Positions 2,401 to 13,858 of a stretch of 64,000 bases of DNA are shown here, one piece after another. The translations under genes were made by a program, and so were the position numbers. The stretch's first letter is position 1; every line of letters begins with the position of its first letter. The notes below the pieces were generated by a model, which was not told the origin of the DNA, searched no databases, and saw nothing but the letters and a program-made list of their open reading frames with translations. The stretch is from Bacteroidota bacterium (lineage in GTDB: Bacteria > Bacteroidota > Bacteroidia > Chitinophagales > Chitinophagaceae): assembly GCA_028876495.1 (NCBI GenBank), contig JAGWRO010000024.1, forward strand, positions 62,001 through 126,000, read 5' to 3'.

Positions 2401-2765
2401 ATAGTATAAATAGATTTTAGATTTTATTTGTATAATCTTACGTGTTGAAAATGAATAATTACAGTAACCAGACAAATTCAGTGAATTTACATTTTATGGT
2501 CTTGCTTCAAATTAAAAATGGCCTTTATTTCTTTATTTACTATAAGTAAAGAATACTGCCTTTCAGTCTTATATTGATGACCTGTTATATAAACTTTACA
2601 TTCAATTACTTCTTCGGCAAAAACCTTGCTCAATTTTTTTCGTAAATTCAATTTTTAAGAGGTTAATACTCAAATAAAAAATGTAAAAGACGTGATCGGT
2701 AAATTTTATTTTTCATAACTAATTTTCTTCCGGGTTTTCTGTAAATGCAATTAAAAAAACAGGTA

Positions 2766-3731
2766 ATGATCACTCTTGAACATGTTGTAAAAAAATTTGG
2801 AAACACAGCAGCTGTTGATGATATCTCATTTGAAGTAAACGAGGGTGAAACTCTTGTATTACTCGGCACAAGCGGTTGTGGCAAAACGACAACGTTGAGG
2901 ATGATCAACAGGCTTACCGAAGCATCTTCCGGTAAGATTATAGTTGCCGGTAAGAATATAAAAGAAGTTCCTGCAGAAGATTTAAGAAGAAGTATGGGTT
3001 ATGTTCTGCAAAACAACGGGCTTTTTCCGCATTATAGCATCGCTGAAAATATAGCTATCGTTCCCCGTCTTTTAAAATGGCTGGAACCAAAAATTTCAGA
3101 ACGTACATCAGAGCTGCTGGAACAACTTCATCTTCCGCAAAATATTTTATCGCTTTATCCGCAGCAATTAAGTGGAGGCCAGCAACAAAGAGTCGGACTG
3201 GCAAGAGCATTGGCTGCCAATCCGCCGGTACTTTTAATGGATGAACCTTTCGGGGCGTTGGATGCTATCACCCGAAATAATATTACCAAAGAGTTTTCCA
3301 GCCTTGAAGTGCTGAAAACCAAAACTATCGTTTTGGTTACGCACGACATAAGAGAAGCATTTGAACTGGGCGATCGTATTTTGTTGATGGATAAAGGGAA
3401 AATTGTTCAGCAAGGCAAATCCATCGATCTTTTATTTCATCCTGAAAGCCGGTTTGTGAGTGATTTTTTTTCGACCCAAAAAATGCAACTTGAATTGCAT
3501 TCAGTTTATTTAAAAGACATCTTTCAACATCTTGAAAATAAAATCAACGACGAAAGCAATCTTCCCGAAATTGATGAAAACAAAAGCCTTTGGGAAGCAA
3601 TCGAATTACTTCAGGCAAAAAATAAAAAAATGATCTCGGTAAAAGATGCTGAGTCCGGAGAAATTAAATATGCCGGCTACAACTCTTTATTCACAGGCCT
3701 TGAGGCGCTAAAGCAACAAAGCCATGCATGA
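2766..3731 (+). CDS. ABC transporter ATP-binding protein, OpuCA/EgtV type
   Basis: Cytoplasmic ATPase of an osmoprotectant/quaternary-amine type importer, energising the fused permease encoded next. With the start at 2766 it has 321 residues. An in-frame ATG at 2745 adds seven residues but gives a less typical N-terminus than MITLEHVVKKF. Walker A is GTSGCGKTT (34-42), the signature is LSGGQQQ (135-141), Walker B is LLMDEP (156-161) and the H-loop is His193. The tail after residue 230 matches an OpuCA-like regulatory extension but holds at most one weak CBS-like half. It overlaps the next gene by 8 bp (ATGCATGA). Because it is followed by egtB and egtD, ergothioneine or a trimethylated precursor is the likely cargo. 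Glycine betaine or choline is the alternative. Confidence 0.88.
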   Translation: MITLEHVVKKFGNTAAVDDISFEVNEGETLVLLGTSGCGKTTTLRMINRLTEASSGKIIVAGKNIKEVPAEDLRRSMGYVLQNNGLFPHYSIAENIAIVPRLLKWLEPKISERTSELLEQLHLPQNILSLYPQQLSGGQQQRVGLARALAANPPVLLMDEPFGALDAITRNNITKEFSSLEVLKTKTIVLVTHDIREAFELGDRILLMDKGKIVQQGKSIDLLFHPESRFVSDFFSTQKMQLELHSVYLKDIFQHLENKINDESNLPEIDENKSLWEAIELLQAKNKKMISVKDAESGEIKYAGYNSLFTGLEALKQQSHA

Positions 3732-5292
3732 TTCACCATCACTATGGAATTTTATGCGCAATCAATCCGGCAAAATCCTGGACCAGTTGTTTCAACACAT
3801 CGGGCTCACTTTTATCTCCTTACTCATAGCTGTTATTATCGGGGTTCCGCTGGGAATTTTTATTTCACGAAAAAGAAAACTGGCAGCGCCGGTTTTAGGC
3901 TTTACAGGCATCCTACAAACCATACCCAGCATTGCTCTACTCGGTTTTATGATTCCGCTTTTAGGAATCGGGGCCATTCCGGCCATCATTGCTCTGTTCC
4001 TTTATGCACTGCTACCAATTGTAAGAAACACTTTTACAGGAATTACCAATGTAGATAAAAGTATCATCGAGTCTGCAAAGGGAATGGGCATGACGAACAA
4101 TCAAATTCTTACCAAAGTAGAACTGCCTTTATCCATGCCCGTTATATTGGCAGGAATCAGAACGGCAACTGTTATTAATGTTGGCGTAGCAACACTTGCG
4201 TCTTATATTGGCGCAGGAGGTTTAGGTGAATTTATTTTTGGAGGTATCGCTTTGAATAATACCAATATGATTTTGGCAGGTGCGATCCCCGCCGCTTTAC
4301 TCGCGATCTCTTTTGATTTTATTTTATCCCGTCTTCAGAAAATAAATTTAAAAAAAGTAAGAATGGCATTTTGGCTGCTACCCTTTTGCCTGGCATTTCT
4401 TTCTTCCTTTTATTTGCTGCCTGATTTTTACAGAAGTAAAATGCTTGCAGGTTTTACGCCTGAATTTATGGGAAGAAAAGATGGCTACCTGGGATTAAAA
4501 AATGTGTATCAACTGAACATCAGAACAGTAGTGATAAGCGATGCAGTTATGTACAAAGCTGCGTTTGAAAAAAAACTGGATGTAATAGACGGATACAGTA
4601 CTGACGGTCGTTTAAAAGCTTTTAACCTGCAGGTTCTTACGGATGATAAAAAGATTTTCCCGCCTTATTATGCAGCGCCCGTGGTGCGTGAACAAGTATT
4701 AAAAAAGTATCCTGAATTAGAAAATGTATTAAACCTGTTGGCAGGAAGAATCAATGATTCTGTTATGACCGAACTAAATTATCGTGTTGATTATTTAAAA
4801 CAATCGCCTGAAAAAGTGGCCAAGGATTTTTTAATGGAACAAAGTTTGTACAAAAGTCCATTAAACGAAAACGAAGGAGTGATCAGGATTGGTTCAAAAA
4901 TTTTTGGCGAACAATATATTTTAGCTTCGATGTATTCCATGCTCATAAAAGGAAACACGCATTTGCAGGTAAAGACTGAAACGGGTTTAGGAGGAACTAA
5001 AATTTGCTTTGACGCACTGAGAAATAACCGGATTGATTTGTATCCTGAATATACAGGTACTGGTCTTTTAGTAATTTTGCAAACGCCCGATTCAATTGTT
5101 ACGAGCTTTCGGGGTAATAAAGAAAAAATTTATAACTACGTAAAACAGCAGTTTTACAGTAAATACAATTTAAAATGGCTGAAACCTATTGGTTTTAATA
5201 ATACATACGCTTTGATGATGCGAAAAAAAGAAGCGGATCGTTTAAAAATTCACACCATTTCAGACCTAAAAAATTATCTCAGCAAAAAATAA
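3724..5292 (+). CDS. ABC permease fused to a circularly permuted substrate-binding domain (EgtU/OpuCB-CC type)
   Basis: A 522-residue membrane protein. Residues 20-235 form a BPD-type permease with about six membrane spans, and the coupling (EAA) loop is near 116-145 (ESAKGMG...ELPLSMP). The periplasmic part matches the OpuAC/EgtUC fold but in unusual order. Residues 243-372 carry the motifs of the usual second lobe (GRKDGYLGL, YSTDGRLKAFNL, DDKKIFPPYYAAPVVRE, LNYRVD, VAKDFL). Residues 386-520 carry those of the usual first lobe (IRIGSKIFGEQYIL, GLGGTK, IDLYPEYTGTGLL, GFNNTYALMMRKKEA, ISDL). The second gene of the operon, it ends 2 bp before egtB. Import of ergothioneine is inferred from that context. 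Binding of another betaine cannot be excluded. Confidence 0.88.
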   Translation: MHDSPSLWNFMRNQSGKILDQLFQHIGLTFISLLIAVIIGVPLGIFISRKRKLAAPVLGFTGILQTIPSIALLGFMIPLLGIGAIPAIIALFLYALLPIVRNTFTGITNVDKSIIESAKGMGMTNNQILTKVELPLSMPVILAGIRTATVINVGVATLASYIGAGGLGEFIFGGIALNNTNMILAGAIPAALLAISFDFILSRLQKINLKKVRMAFWLLPFCLAFLSSFYLLPDFYRSKMLAGFTPEFMGRKDGYLGLKNVYQLNIRTVVISDAVMYKAAFEKKLDVIDGYSTDGRLKAFNLQVLTDDKKIFPPYYAAPVVREQVLKKYPELENVLNLLAGRINDSVMTELNYRVDYLKQSPEKVAKDFLMEQSLYKSPLNENEGVIRIGSKIFGEQYILASMYSMLIKGNTHLQVKTETGLGGTKICFDALRNNRIDLYPEYTGTGLLVILQTPDSIVTSFRGNKEKIYNYVKQQFYSKYNLKWLKPIGFNNTYALMMRKKEADRLKIHTISDLKNYLSKK

Positions 5293-5294
5293 AA

Positions 5295-6458
5295 ATGAAT
5301 TTAGCAGAAAGATATAAAGCCATCCGGCAATACACAGAAGAAATTTGCAAACCCTTACGCACAGAGGATTACGTAGTACAGCCTGTTATAGATGTTAGTC
5401 CGCCTAAATGGCACATCGGGCATGTAACCTGGTTTTTTGAAACGTTTGTTTTAAAACCAAACCTAAAAGATTATAAGGAATTTGATCCGCAATACAATTA
5501 TGTTTTTAATAGTTATTATGAAACAGCCGGAGCCCGTGTGGTCCGCACAGACCGTGGCAATTTAAGCCGCCCGACTGTTGGAGAAATTTACAAATACAGG
5601 AAGCATGTTGACGATGCAATGAATCAATTTCTAGAACAGCCTGTTGAAAAAGAAATTGAAGAGATCATTGTATTGGGTTTCAATCACGAGCAACAACACC
5701 AGGAACTTTTAATGACTGACATCAAATATATTTTAGGAAACAATCCTCTTTTTCCTGCATATAAAGAACCTGTTGATAGTAAACCAACAAAAAATAAAGA
5801 TTATGATTTTACACCTGGGGATTTTATAGAAATGAAAGAAGGCATTTATGAAATTGGTTTTGAAGGAGAAGGTTTTTGTTTTGATAACGAGTTGAAAAGG
5901 CACCGTGTTTTTTTGGAGAATTTCAGGATTGCCAAAAATTTGGTTACTAACAAAGAGTACCTGGAATTTATGAATGGCGGAGGATATAAAAATTTTAATT
6001 ACTGGCACTCTGACGGATGGTCGTGGGTAAAAGAAAATCAAATTTCGGCACCGATGTATTGGCATTTGATCGATGGCGGGTGGTACCAATATACATTAGA
6101 AGGTTTGCAATTGCTGGATTTGAATGAGCCCGTTTGTCATGTTAGTTTTTATGAAGCCGCCGCTTTTGCTTCGTGGAAGGAAATGCGCTTGCCTACTGAG
6201 TTTGAGTGGGAAGCCGCTTCTGATAAATTCCACTGGGGGCGCCGTTGGGAATGGACCGAAAGTGCTTACCTGCCTTATCCGGGTTTTTCAAAAGCCCCGG
6301 GGGCCATAGGAGAATACAATGGCAAATTTATGGTAAACCAAAAAGTGTTGCGGGGTGCTTCTGATGTTACTTCATCCGCGCACAGCCGCATAACTTATCG
6401 CAATTTTTTTCAACCAAACCTACGATGGCAATATACAGGAATTCGCCTGGCCCAATAA
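5295..6458 (+). CDS. egtB: Ergothioneine biosynthesis sulfoxide synthase EgtB
   Basis: A 387-residue non-haem iron enzyme that uses O2 to join a thiol (gamma-glutamylcysteine or cysteine) to the C2 carbon of hercynine as a sulfoxide. The N-terminal DinB-like domain carries the iron triad: His43 in WHIGHVTWF, and His131 and His135 in the HX3HXE motif HEQQHQE. The C-terminal FGE-sulfatase domain (about 180-387) ends with EYNGKFM, VLRGASD, TYRNFF and RWQYTGIRLA, all typical of EgtB. The segment FNSYYETAG resembles the tyrosine pair of cysteine-using EgtBs. It is shorter than the usual ~420-440 residues. It starts 2 bp after the transporter gene and ends 6 bp before egtD. No egtA or egtC is present, so cysteine may be the direct sulfur donor. 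Confidence 0.93.
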   Translation: MNLAERYKAIRQYTEEICKPLRTEDYVVQPVIDVSPPKWHIGHVTWFFETFVLKPNLKDYKEFDPQYNYVFNSYYETAGARVVRTDRGNLSRPTVGEIYKYRKHVDDAMNQFLEQPVEKEIEEIIVLGFNHEQQHQELLMTDIKYILGNNPLFPAYKEPVDSKPTKNKDYDFTPGDFIEMKEGIYEIGFEGEGFCFDNELKRHRVFLENFRIAKNLVTNKEYLEFMNGGGYKNFNYWHSDGWSWVKENQISAPMYWHLIDGGWYQYTLEGLQLLDLNEPVCHVSFYEAAAFASWKEMRLPTEFEWEAASDKFHWGRRWEWTESAYLPYPGFSKAPGAIGEYNGKFMVNQKVLRGASDVTSSAHSRITYRNFFQPNLRWQYTGIRLAQ

Positions 6459-6464
6459 ATAAAT

Positions 6465-7406
6465 ATGGATAATTTTTTAACTGACGTACTGAAAGGCCTG
6501 CAATCTTCACCGAAGTATTTAGACTCGAAATATTTTTATGATAAGAAAGGTGACGAACTTTTTCAAAAGATAATGGAGAGCGAGGAATATTATCTTACCA
6601 ATGCTGAAATGGAAATATTTTCAAAGCAACAATCGCAAATTGTCGATACGGTTTTATATAATAGCGACCCACTGGATGTAATAGAATTTGGCCCGGGCGA
6701 TGCAACCAAATCAGTTCATCTTTTAAAAGAATTAGCTGGGAGAAAACAAATTGAAAATTATGTTCCAATTGATATTTCAGAAAACATCATCAGCCTTTTA
6801 AATCAAAGCTTGCCAAAACAAGTTCCAACTCTTACGATTCATGGTTTGGCTGGAGAATATTTTGAAATGCTTTCTGCAGCACATAAAATTTCTTCGAACA
6901 AAAAACTCGTTTTGTTTCTAGGTGCGAATATTGGCAATTTTAAATTTAATGAAATGCCGGCTTTTTTAATGAAACTCAAAAGTTTGCTTTCAGCCGGAGA
7001 CATGGTTTTAATTGGTTTTGATCTTAAGAAAAATCCTCAAACCATACTTTCGGCTTATAACGATCAACAAGGATTTACCAAAGAATTTAATTTGAATTTA
7101 TTATCCAGGATCAACAAAGAATTGAATGGCAATTTTGAAATAGAAAATTTTGAACATTATCCAACGTACGATCCATCAACAGGTGCATGTAAAAGCTATC
7201 TTATTTCTACAAAAGAACAATCTGTAAAAATTGGGGAAACGCTTATCCATTTTGAAAAAAATGAACCCATTTTTATGGAGATCTCTCAAAAGTATTCTGT
7301 AAAAGAAATTGATGAAATTGCTACAGAATGTGAGTTTGAAGTCTTAGCCGATTTTTTTGATTCCAACAGGTATTTTGTGGATGTGATATTAAAATGCAAC
7401 GATTAA
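6465..7406 (+). CDS. egtD: L-histidine N-alpha-methyltransferase EgtD
   Basis: A 313-residue SAM-dependent enzyme that trimethylates histidine to hercynine, the first step of ergothioneine synthesis. Length and motifs match the family. EYYLTNAE (41-48) lies in the substrate pocket, EFGPGDATKS (74-83) is the SAM-binding loop, GANIGNF (153-159) supplies the conserved Asn, and AYND (197-200) and MEISQKYS (271-278) supply the Glu/Ser pair that grips histidine. It is the last gene of the operon. About 100 bp separates its end from the tRNA pair. Confidence 0.95.
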   Translation: MDNFLTDVLKGLQSSPKYLDSKYFYDKKGDELFQKIMESEEYYLTNAEMEIFSKQQSQIVDTVLYNSDPLDVIEFGPGDATKSVHLLKELAGRKQIENYVPIDISENIISLLNQSLPKQVPTLTIHGLAGEYFEMLSAAHKISSNKKLVLFLGANIGNFKFNEMPAFLMKLKSLLSAGDMVLIGFDLKKNPQTILSAYNDQQGFTKEFNLNLLSRINKELNGNFEIENFEHYPTYDPSTGACKSYLISTKEQSVKIGETLIHFEKNEPIFMEISQKYSVKEIDEIATECEFEVLADFFDSNRYFVDVILKCND

Positions 7407-7508: not shown

Positions 7509-7579
7509 TGCCCGATAGTATAACGGTAGTACGACAGATTCTGATTCTGTTTGTCTTGGTTCGAATCCAGGTCGGGTAA
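7509..7579 (+). tRNA. tRNA-Gln (anticodon CUG)
   Basis: A 71-nt cloverleaf. The acceptor stem TGCCCGA pairs with TCGGGTA (one G-U pair) and the discriminator is A. The anticodon stem ACAGA/TCTGT encloses the loop TTCTGAT with anticodon CTG, which reads CAG. The T-arm is CTTGG-TTCGAAT-CCAGG. CCA is not encoded. It is 44 nt upstream of tRNA-Lys and probably co-transcribed with it. Confidence 0.95.
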
Positions 7580-7623: not shown

Positions 7624-7696
7624 GACTCCGTAGCTCAGTTGGTAGAGCAACAGACTCTTAATCTGTGGGTCCAGAGTTCGAGCCTCTGCGGGGTCA
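7624..7696 (+). tRNA. tRNA-Lys (anticodon CUU)
   Basis: A 73-nt cloverleaf. The acceptor stem GACTCCG pairs with CGGGGTC (one G-U pair). The anticodon stem ACAGA/TCTGT encloses the loop CTCTTAA with anticodon CTT, which reads AAG. The T-arm is CAGAG-TTCGAGC-CTCTG. CCA is not encoded. Confidence 0.95.
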
Positions 7697-7833: not shown

Positions 7834-8337
7834 CTATAATTGGTCCTGCTCCCGTACTGTCTCGAAGATTCCCTTCTCTTTATTTTTACGGACATTATTC
7901 CCATAGAAATAACGGCCATTCATAGCGACATAAACCCCCGGTGGCAAAGTTTGTACAAAGGCCAGGGCACTGCCCAGATTGAAGAACCCGTCAGAGCTGC
8001 CGAACTTATAAGGGATCATAGCACCGGTCAGCACGATCGTCTTACTCAACGCCTGCTCTGCCAGGTAGGCAGCGGTTAACTCCATGGTATCGGTACCATG
8101 CGTAATCACAATTCCCGGCTCTTCGGCCTGCCTGCAACGAAGTGCGATGGATTCTCTCTCCCGGTCTGTAATCTGGAGGCTGTCGATCATCATTAGTGTT
8201 TCGATATCCACCTCTACTTTACACCGGCCCCGACGAAGCATTTCACGCACATGGCTGTCCCTGAAATATAAATTCCCGGTTCGTTCGTCATATTCCTTGT
8301 CAAAGGTTCCTCCCGTAATAAATATTTTTATGCGCAT
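7834..8337 (-). CDS. Short single-domain asparaginase homologue
   Basis: A 167-residue protein matching only the N-terminal domain of L-asparaginases, which normally have ~330 residues. The two catalytic signatures are intact: TGGTFDK (8-14) with the nucleophile-type threonine Thr11, and HGTDTM (80-85), plus Lys111 in GAMIPYK. Free-standing asparaginase domains of this size occur in bacteria, so it may be complete rather than truncated. The ATG at 8337 begins the family-like MRIKIFITGG. Its DNA is GC-richer than its neighbours (33 of 60 bases are G/C at 8101-8160) and it lies just after two tRNA genes, which hints at transfer. Substrate and activity are uncertain. Confidence 0.8.
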   Translation of the reverse strand: MRIKIFITGGTFDKEYDERTGNLYFRDSHVREMLRRGRCKVEVDIETLMMIDSLQITDRERESIALRCRQAEEPGIVITHGTDTMELTAAYLAEQALSKTIVLTGAMIPYKFGSSDGFFNLGSALAFVQTLPPGVYVAMNGRYFYGNNVRKNKEKGIFETVREQDQL

Positions 8338-8732: not shown

Positions 8733-9425
8733 CTATTTTACCTTCTTAATATTTAATAGCCATTTATATAGCCCTAAATTTAAAAGAAAAAGCTCCAAAC
8801 CGTAAAAAACATCTTCAACGGGGATAGTAAACAAACGAATATTCATGATTTCTGTTTTGTTGTAGATAACAACAGGCTCCGCCAAACCGCTTCCGGTAAG
8901 GATTCCGTTCACTATTAAAAAAGGAACCAACAGTATTGCATAAACGCTTATTGCTTTCCCAAACCATTTTACACGAAAAATAAATTTGAAGAAAACTGCA
9001 ACAAAAGCAGTAGTAATTAAAGTAATAGAAGTATAGAGTCTTCCTCCCAAAAATAAGCCGGTACTCACTAATACAATAAAAAAACCGATAACAAAATTCC
9101 TTTCTGTTTTATCATTCCAGGCGAGATTATAAAATTTATCAAGACAAAAAAAAGTAAAGACGCAACTAAATGGGATGCAAATAAAAAAAAGAATTTCTTC
9201 AATGGGAAGTTTTAAAAAATAAATACCTGTTACATATCGTGGATTGAAACTCCACACATGAAGAGAAGTAAAAACGGAATCCCAAATAATAAAAATGAAA
9301 GCAACGGAAACTGAGGCAATGAAAAATTCTTTCCAGGTTTTATAAAATTGTATTTTAGGATGAAAGGAAAACAGGAAAGGAACGAGAATGGTAAAAAAAT
9401 CAACAAGAAGATAGAGAAATTTCAT
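8733..9425 (-). CDS. Lycopene cyclase, CrtYcd type
   Basis: A 230-residue integral membrane protein with about seven hydrophobic segments, consistent with a fused form of the heterodimeric CrtYc/CrtYd lycopene cyclase domains. It would close beta-rings on lycopene to give beta-carotene. The diagnostic segment is WSFNPRYVTGIYF followed by LPIEEILFF (Pro74, Glu76, Glu77), the PxEE motif of this family. The second half repeats the fold with a weaker motif. It is the last gene of the minus-strand carotenoid operon and overlaps crtZ by 4 bp (ATGA), so translation is probably coupled. Confidence 0.88.
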   Translation of the reverse strand: MKFLYLLVDFFTILVPFLFSFHPKIQFYKTWKEFFIASVSVAFIFIIWDSVFTSLHVWSFNPRYVTGIYFLKLPIEEILFFICIPFSCVFTFFCLDKFYNLAWNDKTERNFVIGFFIVLVSTGLFLGGRLYTSITLITTAFVAVFFKFIFRVKWFGKAISVYAILLVPFLIVNGILTGSGLAEPVVIYNKTEIMNIRLFTIPVEDVFYGLELFLLNLGLYKWLLNIKKVK

Positions 9426-9895
9426 GTAGCTCTTTTAACTTTTAATTCCCTGAAATACCTGAAAGGCACCCACAACATTCCAAAGCATTCACCATTTTCT
9501 TTTGTAAGATGTTTGTGGTGAATTTTGTGCGCGCGCCTTATTGCTTTAAAATAAAGACTGTCACTGTTCCTGAAAATTTTAAAACGCTGGTGAATAAAAA
9601 TATCATGAATCAGAAAATAGGCCATGCCGTATAAGGTAATGCCGACGCCAATAAAGAAAAGGAAATTGTAATCATTTTTCATTCCAAAAAATAACGATGC
9701 GATGCCAGGCAAAGCAAAAATCAGAAAAAAGAAATCGTTGTGCTCAATAAAACCTTCACTCTCTTTTTTATGATGATCTTTATGCAATTTCCACAAAATA
9801 CCATGCATAATATATTTATGTGCCAGCCACGCCACTCCTTCCATAGAAACAAAGGCAGTCAGCACACATATAATATCAATTATTATTTTTACCAT
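9422..9895 (-). CDS. crtZ: Beta-carotene hydroxylase CrtZ
   Basis: A 157-residue membrane di-iron hydroxylase of the fatty-acid hydroxylase superfamily, which adds 3-hydroxyl groups to beta-carotene to give zeaxanthin. The histidine clusters are all present: HKYIMH, HKDHH, HDIFIH and HKIHHKH. Its length is typical of bacterial CrtZ. It overlaps the SRPBCC gene upstream by 20 bp and crtYcd downstream by 4 bp, so the three are translated as one tight unit. Confidence 0.92.
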   Translation of the reverse strand: MVKIIIDIICVLTAFVSMEGVAWLAHKYIMHGILWKLHKDHHKKESEGFIEHNDFFFLIFALPGIASLFFGMKNDYNFLFFIGVGITLYGMAYFLIHDIFIHQRFKIFRNSDSLYFKAIRRAHKIHHKHLTKENGECFGMLWVPFRYFRELKVKRAT

Positions 9896-10355
9896 GGTTA
9901 TTAAATATTTGATTTAAAACCTGTTTCCTGTAGGCAAAGATATTCTCTATTTTGTCGCGTACTAAAATTGAATGAGTTAATTCGCCAATCAAGCCGTAGG
10001 GCAACTGGTATTTCACCCTGTCTTTCATCAATATACCATTTTCTTTTTCAAAAAAATGGTGCGTGTGTTCCCACAATTTATAAGGACCTTTCAATTGCCT
10101 GTCAGTAAAAGAATACGGCTTATCCACTTTTGAAATTTCAGTTTGCCAGCGCATCGGAATATTAAATAACGGGCTTACTTTATAATCAATTAACATGCCT
10201 TCGTAAATTTCCTGATCGTTCATTTGCGTAAGAACTTTGAAACCCAATTCAGGGGGCGTAATTACAGCCAGGTTTTCAGCAGATGAAAAAAAATCCCACG
10301 CTTTTTTGATATCAATTGGCAAAAATTGTTCCGCATTATAAATGTAGGTTTCCAT
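9876..10355 (-). CDS. SRPBCC (START-like) family protein in the carotenoid operon
   Basis: A 159-residue soluble protein with the helix-grip pattern of ligand-binding SRPBCC proteins. It starts with a beta-strand and a DIKKAWDFFSSAENL helix, has the conserved ITPPELGF turn, and continues with WQTEISKVD and a LWEHTHHFF strand. The family binds hydrophobic ligands, so handling a carotenoid or polyprenyl intermediate is a reasonable guess, but the sequence shows no catalytic site. It sits between idi (6 bp upstream) and crtZ (20-bp overlap). Confidence 0.8.
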   Translation of the reverse strand: METYIYNAEQFLPIDIKKAWDFFSSAENLAVITPPELGFKVLTQMNDQEIYEGMLIDYKVSPLFNIPMRWQTEISKVDKPYSFTDRQLKGPYKLWEHTHHFFEKENGILMKDRVKYQLPYGLIGELTHSILVRDKIENIFAYRKQVLNQIFNNHGKNNN

Positions 10356-10361
10356 AAATCA

Positions 10362-10886
10362 TTATTGTTTTTGTTGATGAATTCTCTTTATCACTTCAGG
10401 CAAACATATCTTTAACCATGAGGAATAATCCTGCGGATTTTGCTCAATGGCCTTTTGCAAATTATCGAGCGAAATATATTTCCAATCTTTTGCTTCTAAA
10501 ATATTTGGCTCTGGCAATTCATCGCTTTTACCAAAATATACATAATCCAGTTCATGCTCTGTTAATCCATTCCCAAATTGAGTTTTATAAATAAAACTGA
10601 ATTGAAAATCAGTTTCGCATTCTATTCCCATTTCTTCTTTTAGCCTTTTTTTAATGGTCGATTTTATTTCCTGGCCATTTACAGGATGGCTGCAACAGGT
10701 GTTGCTCCAAAGTCCACCTGAATGATATTTATCATTGGCCCTTTGTTGCAACAACAATTGGCCTTTTGAGTTAAAAATGAAAACCGAAAATGCCCGGTGA
10801 AGGCTTCCTGATTCATGAACGGAAAGCTTTTCCATCAACCCGATTTCGTTATCGTTTTCATCAACCAATATCAGTAAGTCATTCAT
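10362..10886 (-). CDS. idi: Isopentenyl-diphosphate delta-isomerase, type 1
   Basis: A 174-residue Nudix-fold isomerase that interconverts IPP and DMAPP and so supplies primers for GGPP and carotenoid synthesis. Visible motifs are HRAFSVFIFN, the catalytic cysteine in SNTCCSHP, the Nudix-like stretch KKRLKEEMGI, and ELDYVYFGK with the catalytic glutamate in EHELD. The length is normal. It lies in the carotenoid operon, 20 bp after the small exported protein and 6 bp before the SRPBCC gene. Confidence 0.93.
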   Translation of the reverse strand: MNDLLILVDENDNEIGLMEKLSVHESGSLHRAFSVFIFNSKGQLLLQQRANDKYHSGGLWSNTCCSHPVNGQEIKSTIKKRLKEEMGIECETDFQFSFIYKTQFGNGLTEHELDYVYFGKSDELPEPNILEAKDWKYISLDNLQKAIEQNPQDYSSWLKICLPEVIKRIHQQKQ

Positions 10887-10906
10887 TGTTCATTTTTTTT
10901 GTTGGA

Positions 10907-11410
10907 TTACTTTTTCATCTGTTCAGTAGTATCCGCAATCATAAAATCCGAGTTCTTTAAATACGGTAACATAAATTCTTTCAGTTTCACATCTGTAATT
11001 TTAGAAAAAGAATCTTCCAGAAACGCTTTATCTTTTTTTATATCCCCATTATAACCCAAAAAAGAAGGCATATGTGTTTGTGCATTAAACCTTAAAAATC
11101 TTAATTCAATATTATTTTCATCTGCCTTAATTGCATTTTCCAGGATTCGTTTTCCTTTTTTAAAATAAGACATTTTAGAAAACGGGTTAATAACATGTTT
11201 TGCCATCATCATGATCGCACTTGCTTTATAACCGGCATATAAAGGGTTGTTATTTTCATTATACGGTGAAAGAATTTCTACAAGCTTATTGCACGCAGAT
11301 TCGTCGTTTACTGCTTTTTCATAAAGCGATCTTACTTCACCAATCGAAGGGGTATTTGCAAAAGTAGTTTTTGCAAAAAAAAGTAAGCCAACAAATAAAA
11401 ATTTTTTCAT
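10907..11410 (-). CDS. Small exported protein of unknown function in the carotenoid operon
   Basis: With the internal start at 11410 (the ORF is open from 11437) the protein has 167 residues and begins with a classical signal peptide, MKKFLFVGLLFFAKTTFA, with likely cleavage after Ala18. The mature part is helical and reminiscent of a TPR-like scaffold (LYEKAVNDESACNKLVEIL, RILENAIKADENNIELRF). No catalytic motif is visible. It lies between crtB (94 bp upstream) and idi (20 bp downstream), so it is probably periplasmic and expressed with the pigment genes. I do not recognise a function. Confidence 0.75.
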   Translation of the reverse strand: MKKFLFVGLLFFAKTTFANTPSIGEVRSLYEKAVNDESACNKLVEILSPYNENNNPLYAGYKASAIMMMAKHVINPFSKMSYFKKGKRILENAIKADENNIELRFLRFNAQTHMPSFLGYNGDIKKDKAFLEDSFSKITDVKLKEFMLPYLKNSDFMIADTTEQMKK

Positions 11411-11504
11411 GTGCACATTTTTTTTTTCATTTGCCACGTGGAATTCTGCATAAAAATTTTCATCGCGGTTGGTATAAATTGCCCGAAACTTTTTATGCTA
11501 CATT

Positions 11505-12341
11505 TCATACCAGGTTCATTTTATTTATCACCAAACTATTGATCATAAGCCCCAGTTTTTTTCCGTTATTAATCCTTATTCTTTCATTTAAAATTTTGTG
11601 AGCGGGCAATTTTTTTATTTTTTTAAAAAGCGACTGATAATAAACATAAGCAAGATAAACGCCACCTTTTGACGAAGCCGGCAACTTTTTTATCCCGGCT
11701 AATCCTGTTTTAAAATCATGCTCAATGTCCTCTTCGATTTGCTTTTTTACATCGCCACTAAAATGAGCCATATTCACATCAGGAAAATAGGTTCTTCCTA
11801 AAATAACATAATCATCTTTCATATCTCTTAAAAAATTTACTTTTTGAAAAGCAGCACCCAGCCTCATTGCGTAAGGCTTCAGTTCTTCATACAAAGCAGG
11901 CTTCTCGTGAGTAAACACCCGCAGGCACATCAAACCAACCACTTCGGCAGAGCCAAGAATATATTGCTGGTATTTCTCTTCAGTATAATTAACCTTTTGC
12001 AGATCCATTTCCATACTTTTTAAAAATACTTCGATCAATTCCTGTTCAATTTTATATTGATTAACGGCATGTTGGAAAGAATTTAAAACAGGATTCACAG
12101 AAATTTTATTTTCGATTGCATCATACGTTTCCTCTGTAAATTTTGCAAGTAACTTCTTTTGATCATACCCGGTAAAACTATCAACAATTTCATCTGCTAA
12201 TCTTACGAAACCGTAGATGGAATAAATAGCATCACGCAAACTGTTGTTCAAAAAGTAAATACCCAGCGAAAAGCTGGTACTGTAAGCCTTTGTGGTGGCT
12301 TTGCTTACTTTAACCGAGAGTTGATCAAACAAGGATTTCAT
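11505..12341 (-). CDS. crtB: Phytoene synthase CrtB
   Basis: A 278-residue all-helical prenyl-coupling enzyme that condenses two GGPP to phytoene, the first committed carotenoid step. The two aspartate-rich metal-binding motifs are RLADEIVD and NFLRDMKDD. YSTSFSLG near the N-terminus and YCxxV-like GSAEVVGLM are also typical. It overlaps crtI by 17 bp on the same strand. No crtE (GGPP synthase) is in the window, so the substrate must come from elsewhere in the genome. Confidence 0.94.
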   Translation of the reverse strand: MKSLFDQLSVKVSKATTKAYSTSFSLGIYFLNNSLRDAIYSIYGFVRLADEIVDSFTGYDQKKLLAKFTEETYDAIENKISVNPVLNSFQHAVNQYKIEQELIEVFLKSMEMDLQKVNYTEEKYQQYILGSAEVVGLMCLRVFTHEKPALYEELKPYAMRLGAAFQKVNFLRDMKDDYVILGRTYFPDVNMAHFSGDVKKQIEEDIEHDFKTGLAGIKKLPASSKGGVYLAYVYYQSLFKKIKKLPAHKILNERIRINNGKKLGLMINSLVINKMNLV

Positions 12342-13821
12342 GCTCTTTATTTTTTAAATATTTTAATAATTGTCCGGCTGCAATTTTTCCTGAAATAAGT
12401 GACGGAGGAACACCCGGCCCCGGAACCGTAAGTTGTCCCGCATAAAAAAGATTCCTGATCTTTTTATTCCTGATTTTGGGTTTTAGAAATGCGGTTTGCA
12501 TTAACGTGTTGGCAAGGCCGTAAGCATTTCCTTTATATGCATGATAATCAGAAATAAAATCATTGATGCAATAACTTTTTTTGTAATCAAGATGCGACTC
12601 TATTTTTTCTCCTGCGTGTTTTTCCAGTCTTTTCATCATAATCTCAAAATATTTTTCACGCGTCTCATCATTGTCTTCAAGTCCGGGTGCAACCGGCATC
12701 AGGAGGAATAAATTCTCATGCCCATCAGGTGCGACAGTATCATCAGTTTTTGAAGGGCAACACACATAGAACAAAGGCTTTGAAGGCCATTTGGGTGATT
12801 TATAAATTTCGACAGAATGCTGAAAAAGGTCTTCTTCAAAAAATAAAGTGTGATGCTCAAGCGAATTTATTTTTTTTGAAACACCTAAATAATAAATAAG
12901 ACAGGAAGGCGCAAACGTTTTTTTCTGCCAGTAACTTTCAGAATAGTTTTTAAATTCCGGCGGCAACAATTCATTTTCAACATGGTGATAATCCGCTGAA
13001 GCAATAACTCCATCAAAGTTTGTTTCCTTTCCTTCCGCTAAAATGCTTTCTACAAGATTGCCTTCTACGAGTAATTTTTCCACAGGCGCATTAAAATGAA
13101 ACGTAGTTCCTTGCTTCTCACAAATTAATTGCATAAAGTCAATAACTTTTCCAAATCCTCCCATCGGATACCATGTGCCGAGTTTCAATCCCGCATAGTT
13201 CATCAGGCTGTACAATGCAGGCGTATCCTGCGGCATAGCACCGAGAAATAAAACCGGGAATTCCATCAAAGAAATCAGTTTCGGATTTGAAAAATATTTT
13301 CTTACATGCTTGCTAAAAGAAGAAAATATCTGTAACCGAAATGCATCTTTTATAATTTTGAGATCGGCAAATTCGCTGAGCGATAACCCCGGCATATAAA
13401 CCAGGTCTTCCATGCCTGCTTCATATTTGAGCTTCGCTTCCTTCATAAATTTATCCAACTGGTCAGAACTACCTTTTTCTATACTTTCAAAAATATCCTT
13501 AAGTTGTAAATAATCAGAAGGAATACTCATTTTTTCTCCCTTATCAAATACCACCTCAAATGAAGGATCAAGTAATTTCAAAGCGTAACCATCCGAAACG
13601 GAATACCCAAAATCTTTAAAAAAGCGTTCAAACACACCAGGCATCCAATACCAGCTTGGTCCCATGTCAAAAACATAACCATCCTCCGTTCTGAATTGCC
13701 GCGCTCTTCCTCCCGCTGTTGCATTCTTTTCAAAAACATGCACTTCATGCCCTTCAACAGACAAATAGGCTGCCGCACTTAAACCTGAAAACCCAGACCC
13801 TATAATTGCAATTTTTGACAT
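12325..13821 (-). CDS. crtI: Phytoene desaturase CrtI
   Basis: FAD-dependent desaturase that converts phytoene to lycopene. The ATG at 13821 (498 residues) puts the dinucleotide-binding motif IIGSGFSGLSAAAYL right at the N-terminus, as expected. An in-frame ATG at 13848 would add nine residues and lies inside the proposed operator. The C-terminus has the CrtI signature LFYAGQLTVPGPGVPPSLIS. It is the first structural gene after carH, 36 bp downstream, and overlaps crtB by 17 bp. A promoter/operator lies directly upstream. Confidence 0.94.
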   Translation of the reverse strand: MSKIAIIGSGFSGLSAAAYLSVEGHEVHVFEKNATAGGRARQFRTEDGYVFDMGPSWYWMPGVFERFFKDFGYSVSDGYALKLLDPSFEVVFDKGEKMSIPSDYLQLKDIFESIEKGSSDQLDKFMKEAKLKYEAGMEDLVYMPGLSLSEFADLKIIKDAFRLQIFSSFSKHVRKYFSNPKLISLMEFPVLFLGAMPQDTPALYSLMNYAGLKLGTWYPMGGFGKVIDFMQLICEKQGTTFHFNAPVEKLLVEGNLVESILAEGKETNFDGVIASADYHHVENELLPPEFKNYSESYWQKKTFAPSCLIYYLGVSKKINSLEHHTLFFEEDLFQHSVEIYKSPKWPSKPLFYVCCPSKTDDTVAPDGHENLFLLMPVAPGLEDNDETREKYFEIMMKRLEKHAGEKIESHLDYKKSYCINDFISDYHAYKGNAYGLANTLMQTAFLKPKIRNKKIRNLFYAGQLTVPGPGVPPSLISGKIAAGQLLKYLKNKEHEILV

Positions 13822-13826
13822 GCTTT

Positions 13827-13858
13827 TTGTTAAACTTTTTAAATACAAATTTAAACAT
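13827..13858 (-). promoter_or_regulatory. Putative promoter and CarH operator before crtI
   Basis: On the minus strand the arms ATGTTTAA (13858-13851) and TTTAACAA (13834-13827) enclose a 16-bp spacer. This is the same arm spacing as the repeat before carH, with 7/8 and 6/8 identity to its arms. A TAAATTTG -7 element overlaps the left arm. The site ends 6 bp before the crtI ATG. The region is AT-rich, so chance similarity is possible. Confidence 0.45.

Follow-up and report, generated by a model that had tools for sequence, protein, structure and literature searches.

A permease-fused substrate-binding domain with swapped halves in an importer locus of Bacteroidota that adjoins ergothioneine genes

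Can the receptor of an ATP-binding cassette (ABC) importer be fused to its permease with its two halves in swapped order, and what would such an importer carry? The question is raised by a 64,000-nucleotide stretch of a Chitinophagaceae genome (Bacteroidota bacterium, assembly GCA_028876495.1, contig JAGWRO010000024.1, positions 62,001 to 126,000, forward strand), hereafter the window, in which one open reading frame (ORF) encodes a 522-residue permease with a C-terminal substrate-binding domain (SBD). An initial annotation, made from the letters alone, had read the motif order of this protein as a circular permutation of an EgtU/OpuC-type SBD; the ORF, its strand and its motif positions are all as given there (Table 1), and the permutation itself is now backed by sequence comparison, by predicted structure and by the recurrence of this order in many relatives. 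Our reading, to which we assign a probability of roughly 0.75, is that the protein is the combined permease and receptor subunit of a functional type I ABC importer, that its Tyr-cage (OpuC/EgtU-type) domain is permuted with a single origin, and that it serves import in the ergothioneine pathway.

The OpuAC profile PF04069, that of the Tyr-cage/cluster F-III type of substrate-binding domain, matches the whole protein at E 1.5e-58 (198.9 bits against a cut-off of 21.2) in two stretches, the best of which pairs residues 240-370 with profile positions 115-255, and a scan of the protein's own genome found profile positions 114-255 and then 3-113 within one open frame, both halves being matched. 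The same swap was found with phmmer against the EgtUC chain of Streptococcus pneumoniae (9egi), where residues 239-377 aligned with chain positions 138-276 (i-Evalue 2.2e-37) and residues 384-517 with positions 6-134 (i-Evalue 3.7e-19). Conversely, a profile built from 49 permuted domains matched 27 related PDB sequences (EgtUC, OpuCC/OpuBC, AfProX and YehZ/OsmF types as well as engineered sensors), all 27 of them in two or three stretches and none in one. The half order that is canonical for PF04069 is thus not that of the 522-residue protein, in which complete halves are swapped in one chain, and by the measure of these sequence matches chance is excluded as the source. The initial annotation had spoken of a rearrangement and not a truncation, which both the Pfam match and the own-genome scan bear out, each half being complete and present once; a truncated domain accompanied by a duplicate is ruled out on the same count, and the PF04069 scan of the 4.7-Mb assembly gave no second OpuAC match at E ≤ 0.001.

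The point at which the chain was opened could be mapped on EgtU by an offset of +229 from the EgtUC chain (chain Y112 is Y341 and E146 is E375), with lobe D2 taken as residues 341-432 and lobe D1 as residues 233-331 plus 445-506 (PMC9732360). The breakpoint falls between EgtU residues 363 and 367, which is inside D2, directly after the ISDLK helix and in neither hinge strand; the earlier placement of the break in the hinge after ISDL did not survive this mapping onto the described EgtUC structure, and a hinge break is ruled out. The original second half, which now comes first, holds the rest of D2, a hinge strand and the C-terminal part of D1, while the original first half, with which the protein now finishes, holds the N-terminal part of D1, a hinge strand and the start of D2. 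The old termini, both in D1, are now linked by about eight residues, and the gap between the halves measures 8-17 residues in 110 of 111 permuted ORFs and 26 in the remaining one (repeats counted). Both new termini lie in D2, which agrees with the earlier suggestion that lobe 2 adjoins the permease, and the new N-terminal end is preceded by a hydrophobic segment in which the full-length model places helices at 212-230 and 232-236, with low-to-middling confidence there. Since the break lies inside D2, the tether shifts from D1 to D2. The sequence evidence shows that the swap of the halves took place at a loop within D2 and that only a short linker separates the former termini.

A structure prediction for residues 236-522, proposed as a check in the initial annotation, gave a confident AlphaFold2 model (predicted local distance difference test, pLDDT, 93.4; predicted template modelling score, pTM, 0.89) from an alignment of 49 window and named-locus sequences, and the full-length model reached pLDDT 83.3 and pTM 0.68. 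In Foldseek, the five best PDB matches of the domain were all Bacillus subtilis OpuAC, aligned end to end over 299-303 columns (TMq 0.59-0.64, TMt 0.63-0.69, 14-15% identity). The alignment with EgtUC took in a single half, the original second one (135-140 columns, roughly 2.1 Å, 48% identity), and the fit to canonical relatives was poor where the alignment spanned their whole length (e.g., 7s7x, 321 columns, TMq 0.41). The OpuAC of Lactococcus lactis was absent among the 50 Foldseek matches listed, because its half order and that of B. subtilis OpuAC are swapped. The two-lobed fold is predicted to be kept, and the chain would fold as a normal two-lobed domain tethered to the membrane helix via D2 and not D1. 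The halves could instead pair between chains, the C-terminal half completing the receptor of the partner subunit by domain swapping, since two receptor copies stand side by side in type I importers and the linker is so short in all but one of the ORF rows counted above. The single-chain model, however, closes the fold confidently across the linker (10-residue blocks at 92 and 93), and the position of both old termini in D1 makes a short intrachain link plausible, so that we hold domain swapping to be very improbable.

The arrangement is not confined to this genome. Writing TM for the permease and N and C for the original first and second halves, the window protein is TM-C-N. Among 395 genomes drawn evenly from the phylum and scanned with PF04069, 88 had a match, and in 22, own genome included, the halves were swapped in one frame, every time near profile position 113/114; the other 21 loci were all TM-C-N. 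In a sample of 294 genomes from the family, 60 had a match and 35, again counting the own genome, a swapped pair; one full-length canonical match (a 494-residue frame) and one first-half-only match were also found there, the remainder being weak partials below 30 bits. When named genomes were scanned with a permuted alignment (A1), at least 574 relatives (at least 600 stretches) matched, of which the best 80 were kept; being the best matches to a permuted query, these show carriers and not frequency. All 80 were TM-C-N, and their sources include Ginsengibacter, Parafilimonas, Segetibacter, Chitinophaga, Niastella, Flavihumibacter, Mucilaginibacter, Pedobacter, Hufsiella and Dyadobacter, each of these a genus of Bacteroidota. 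The search for homologues and their mapping on trees, likewise proposed at the outset, found the same order and breakpoint to be common to many Bacteroidota, and the carriers of the permuted importer are a group of soil and water bacteria. An artefact of assembly, frameshift or annotation would have to recur in the uninterrupted ORFs of the window, the 80 named loci and the 21 phylum-sampled loci (sources that partly overlap) as well as in the 35 family genomes; its probability is negligible, the same order in other genomes ruling out an artefact, frameshift or chimera.

Canonical relatives are laid out otherwise. All 30 distinct canonical fused proteins from the phylum are receptor-first (N-C-TM), and the order TM-N-C was found on plasmids of Niallia, two lactobacilli, a Fusobacteria isolate and Synechocystis. 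Outside the phylum only plasmid records were searched, as the 60 best and 60 spread rows of 1013 matching records: the 60 best matched the permuted query in three or four pieces, which is what a canonical order would give, and spread rows matching in one piece covered at most 30% of it. Fifteen plasmid records from the best rows held 16 binding-domain ORFs, all canonical (10 N-C, 5 TM-N-C and 1 N-C-TM).

Did the permutation arise once? In a combined tree of the permease and the re-ordered halves from 75 fused proteins, the 39 permutants form one clade (support 99/97), nearest to two TM-first proteins (85/80) that sit on long branches, which leaves the sister group unsure. Permutants also group together in a binding-domain tree of 85 rows (support 99) and in a tree of the first half (support 95). 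Several observations speak against our reading here: the permease-only and second-half-only trees each need two changes for the permuted label, the starred branches of the second-half tree force two, no two-domain (tandem) intermediate was found among the loci examined, and no TM-first canonical relative occurs among the 30 distinct canonical fused proteins of the phylum. Holding the permutants together nevertheless gave the better likelihood in both the permease-only and the second-half trees (p-AU 0.708 and 0.675), and a single origin of the permutation is, on these sequence trees, well supported and not proven. A simple circular permutation of a whole SBD-first gene was rejected as the route, as it would yield TM-N-C or C-TM-N and not TM-C-N. 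Duplication followed by loss is a general model for circular permutation; in this group the permutation would have arisen once, probably via tandem duplication of the domain and subsequent loss of the outer halves.

To judge the ligand, we compared the 14 binding-site positions discussed in PMC9732360 in a set of 106 distinct permuted domains, of which two come from ORFs truncated by the end of a contig. Ten of the 14 residues are identical between the window protein and S. pneumoniae EgtUC (SpEgtUC), and 11 positions are invariant in 106 of 106 domains (K392, G424, T425, Y443, T446, F491, N493, Y495, E247, R251 and Y315). The invariant set includes E247, R251, K392 and T446, the counterparts of the SpEgtU contacts E375, R379, K242 and T296. 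The aromatic cage with its asparagine is present as Y443, Y495, Y291, Y315 and N493 (kept in 106, 106, 90, 106 and 106 domains), the cage positions being Tyr and not the Trp of the OpuA type, and the variation is confined to position 291 (Tyr in 90, Ser in 16), F394 (Phe in 102, Gln in 4) and residue 393 (Ile in 93). A ligand site under such constraint argues that the domain is used. In the domains with Ser for the cage Tyr at 291 or with Gln at 394, specificity may differ.

The genes around the permuted loci suggest what is imported. Within fetched flanks of up to 6 kb, some of them shortened where a contig stops, a same-strand ATPase was found at 77 of the 80 named permuted loci, same-strand EgtB at 78, EgtD at 75 and both egt genes at 75, which suggests ergothioneine-pathway import, and both genes lie nearby, on either strand, at 5 of 19 canonical loci. 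These five (L085, L090, L096, L099 and L101) are receptor-first (N-C-TM) relatives, so that two layouts serve the same kind of neighbourhood. At one permuted locus (L117), the region downstream of the permuted gene, which runs from about 2516 to where the contig stops, has its EgtB and EgtD matches broken into several short pieces spread over the two strands, and a rearrangement or a poor contig is possible there. By virtue of the egt neighbourhood, import or recapture of ergothioneine or of a pathway betaine is favoured, with a general osmoprotectant as the main rival. Two permuted subunits and two copies of the upstream ATPase would together form the importer of a quaternary-ammonium compound, for which ergothioneine or a betaine from its pathway (e.g., hercynine) is the most likely candidate, and import would recapture or supplement the products of EgtB and EgtD.

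This assignment of substrate has evidence to answer. Four of the 14 positions differ from SpEgtUC (G244 is F394, T274 is G424, F293 is Y443 and Y337 is F491), so that G244 and the F293/Y337 switch of SpEgtU, which are tied to ergothioneine specificity (PMC9732360), are absent from the window protein, and in SpEgtUC the G244F change weakens ergothioneine binding about 100-fold (PMC9732360). Of the 21 phylum-sampled permutants, moreover, only 12 have EgtB and 13 EgtD on the same strand, and the 80 named loci, as the best matches to a permuted query, may overstate the linkage. The same permuted importer might then carry a general osmoprotectant (glycine betaine, choline or carnitine), the egt neighbourhood being incidental or regulatory: at the three ergothioneine-marking positions, F394, Y443 and F491 show the state of Archaeoglobus fulgidus ProX, and one or both same-strand egt genes are lacking in the fetched flank of 9 of the 21 phylum-sampled permutants. 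Phe and Tyr likewise occupy the G244 and F293 positions in every one of the 31 receptor-first canonical rows, of which 30 are from the phylum and one is from Gemmatirosa. The G244 and F293/Y337 changes mean that the substrate may be another betaine. Against an osmoprotectant stand the same-strand egt counts at the named loci, the Helicobacter pylori EgtU structure 8dp7, which is titled as EGT-bound, and the report that H. pylori cluster 2 transporters join in ergothioneine uptake at lower affinity (PMC9732360); the same paper describes other cluster 2 subclusters as being without those ergothioneine determinants. We consider an osmoprotectant possible but rather unlikely, and retain import in the ergothioneine pathway as the preferred reading.

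What a tether on D2 would change can be gauged from OpuA, in which an anchoring helix and an 11-residue linker keep each receptor near its docking site and the lobes of the docked receptor each touch a different permease subunit (PMC11065425). By analogy, a tether on D2 in place of D1 could exchange the subunits that the two lobes contact. The permutation may equally be real yet functionally neutral, docking being the same whichever lobe is tethered; this is compatible with our explanation, and we give it an even chance. Most ligand-site residues are unchanged, and the OpuAC backbone of the canonical, permease-fused L. lactis protein superimposes at 0.98 Å on that of the permuted B. subtilis lipoprotein (PMC2861598). 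Order and breakpoint, on the other hand, are kept across a divergent group, though one inherited event would give the same, and a short tether limits receptor movement in OpuA (PMC11065425). The permuted proteins together with their D1-tethered and receptor-first relatives form a natural set in which an EgtU-like permease, anchor and binding site occur with a D2 tether, and comparing these layouts would show if tether position controls docking. The locus also points to an ergothioneine-pathway importer in organisms with their own EgtB and EgtD, and searches that expect one full-length OpuAC match split such proteins, as happened here.

Table 1 Features of the importer locus, with positions counted from the first letter of the window
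Feature	Coordinates	Strand	Evidence
ABC ATPase partner, ProV/OpuCA-like	2745..3731	+	PF00005 5e-37; proV subfamily model 9.7e-83, under its cut-off
Permease fused to circularly permuted substrate-binding domain, 522 aa	3724..5292	+	ORF, Pfam, phmmer, own-genome scan
Permease core BPD_transp_1, residues 40-213	3841..4362	+	PF00528 3.7e-25
Hydrophobic anchoring segment, residues 212-236, leads into binding domain	4357..4431	+	Hydropathy; full-length model
Binding domain, original second half, residues 239-377 = EgtU 367-505	4438..4854	+	phmmer
Short linker, old C-terminus to old N-terminus, residues 378-385	4855..4878	+	phmmer; ORF gap counts
Binding domain, original first half, residues 386-517	4879..5274	+	phmmer
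EgtB, ergothioneine biosynthesis	5295..6458	+	TIGR03440 540.8 bits, cut-off 360
EgtD-like histidine N-methyltransferase	6465..7406	+	PF10017 7.7e-95; TIGR03438 288.5 bits, just below cut-off 290.9

Within the locus the genes are tightly packed, the end of the ATPase gene overlapping the start of the permuted gene by 8 bases and a two-base gap separating the latter from the start of EgtB, after which comes the EgtD-like gene. The EgtE model TIGR04343 gave sub-cut-off matches only, as it did in all 14 control genomes, and is therefore uninformative on EgtE. Promoter-like sites (18 against 16.7 in shuffles) and terminator-like sites (6 against 4.3) were about as frequent as in shuffled sequence. 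Two tRNA genes (7509-7579 and 7624-7696, both on the + strand) lie between the egt genes and a short ORF on the - strand (7834-8337, 167 residues) that matches the asparaginase N-terminal domain only. Further on, a carotenoid-like cluster (8733-13848, - strand), four of whose ORFs were scanned, encodes lycopene cyclase, fatty-acid-hydroxylase family, squalene/phytoene synthase and flavin amine oxidoreductase family proteins.

Among known systems, B. subtilis OpuAC (2b4l, 2b4m, 3chg and 5nxx) shares the chain order of the permuted domain, and its break too lies in the loop that follows the (I)SDLK/IEDLK helix. It differs in being a separate lipoprotein (PMC2861598) and not fused to a permease, and it has a Trp cage and belongs to another branch of the family, in which it is permuted relative to the L. 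lactis OpuA receptor despite 44% identity (PMC2861598). An OpuAC-type ORF of Lactiplantibacillus (L198, 3569-4486) shows this relation directly, as it matched B. subtilis OpuAC (2b4l) in one stretch (1.4e-75) and the L. lactis OpuA domain (3l6g) in two swapped stretches split directly after SIEDL; by sequence, then, the B. subtilis-type OpuAC and the L. lactis OpuA receptor differ by a circular permutation at the post-SIEDL loop. With hhalign, L198 aligned to a canonical profile made from 55 Tyr-cage rows, with repeats counted, in swapped stretches, 1-161 to 123-276 (probability 52%) and 158-270 to 1-128 (30%), and the permuted profile was split on the same canonical profile at 128/136 (100%), the same place as the L198 break. 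Against that canonical profile, L199 aligned colinearly (67%) and L201 gave no match. No significant alignment of L198 with the permuted profile was obtained (probability 0.1), and, as a point against the parallel, B. subtilis OpuAC was absent from the permuted-profile search of the PDB up to E 10, so that the likeness to OpuAC rests on structure and indirect comparisons. With these reservations, two branches of the superfamily appear to have been permuted at the same loop, and the permuted group would have reached the OpuAC chain order independently, apparently as a second case in nature of permutation at this site.

This kind of permutation is already known, circular permutants among glycine-betaine-binding proteins having been found by CPSARST in 2008 (PMC2395249), and together with the B. 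subtilis-type OpuAC, permuted at the same loop, this reduces the novelty of our case; the EgtU-branch example is an inherited, real permutation, and among the open-access titles and abstracts in the matches listed we found no description of one in the EgtU branch or in Bacteroidota. A more far-reaching proposal, that the post-ISDLK loop of D2 is a recurrent site opened independently in the OpuA and EgtU branches, where a D2 tether alters the pairing of lobes with permease subunits and thereby improves docking or release of anchored receptors, the design serving ergothioneine recapture in Bacteroidota, strikes us as doubtful.

L. lactis OpuA (3l6g, 7ahc and 7ahd) has a permease, an anchoring helix, a short linker and then the binding domain, as here, and is the best full-length structural match of the whole protein (7ahd, 542 columns), though at a root-mean-square deviation of 8.6; unlike the permuted protein, it has canonical half order and a Trp cage and binds glycine betaine. 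TpMglB-2 (Tp0684) of Treponema pallidum is, like the domain here, a naturally permuted binding protein of an ABC importer, and its authors suggest that the topology may be an adaptation to anchoring or tethering (PMC4990184). It belongs, however, to another family, the TpMglB-2-like 'Type Ic' binding proteins, and is a lipoprotein with a Type I/cluster B sugar-binding fold, whereas the sequence and structure matches of the window protein are to glycine-betaine/choline/ergothioneine-type proteins. SBD-first fused relatives in the phylum (e.g., L085, L090 and L096) have similar halves and a similar permease, but in canonical order and with the binding domain ahead of the permease. S. pneumoniae EgtU/EgtUC (7txk, 7txl and 9egi) has a permease with a C-terminal Tyr/Phe-cage domain, and its combination of fusion protein and separate ATPase is also that of the locus described here; its SBD keeps the canonical order with both termini in D1, whereas in the permuted protein the halves are swapped and both termini lie in D2.

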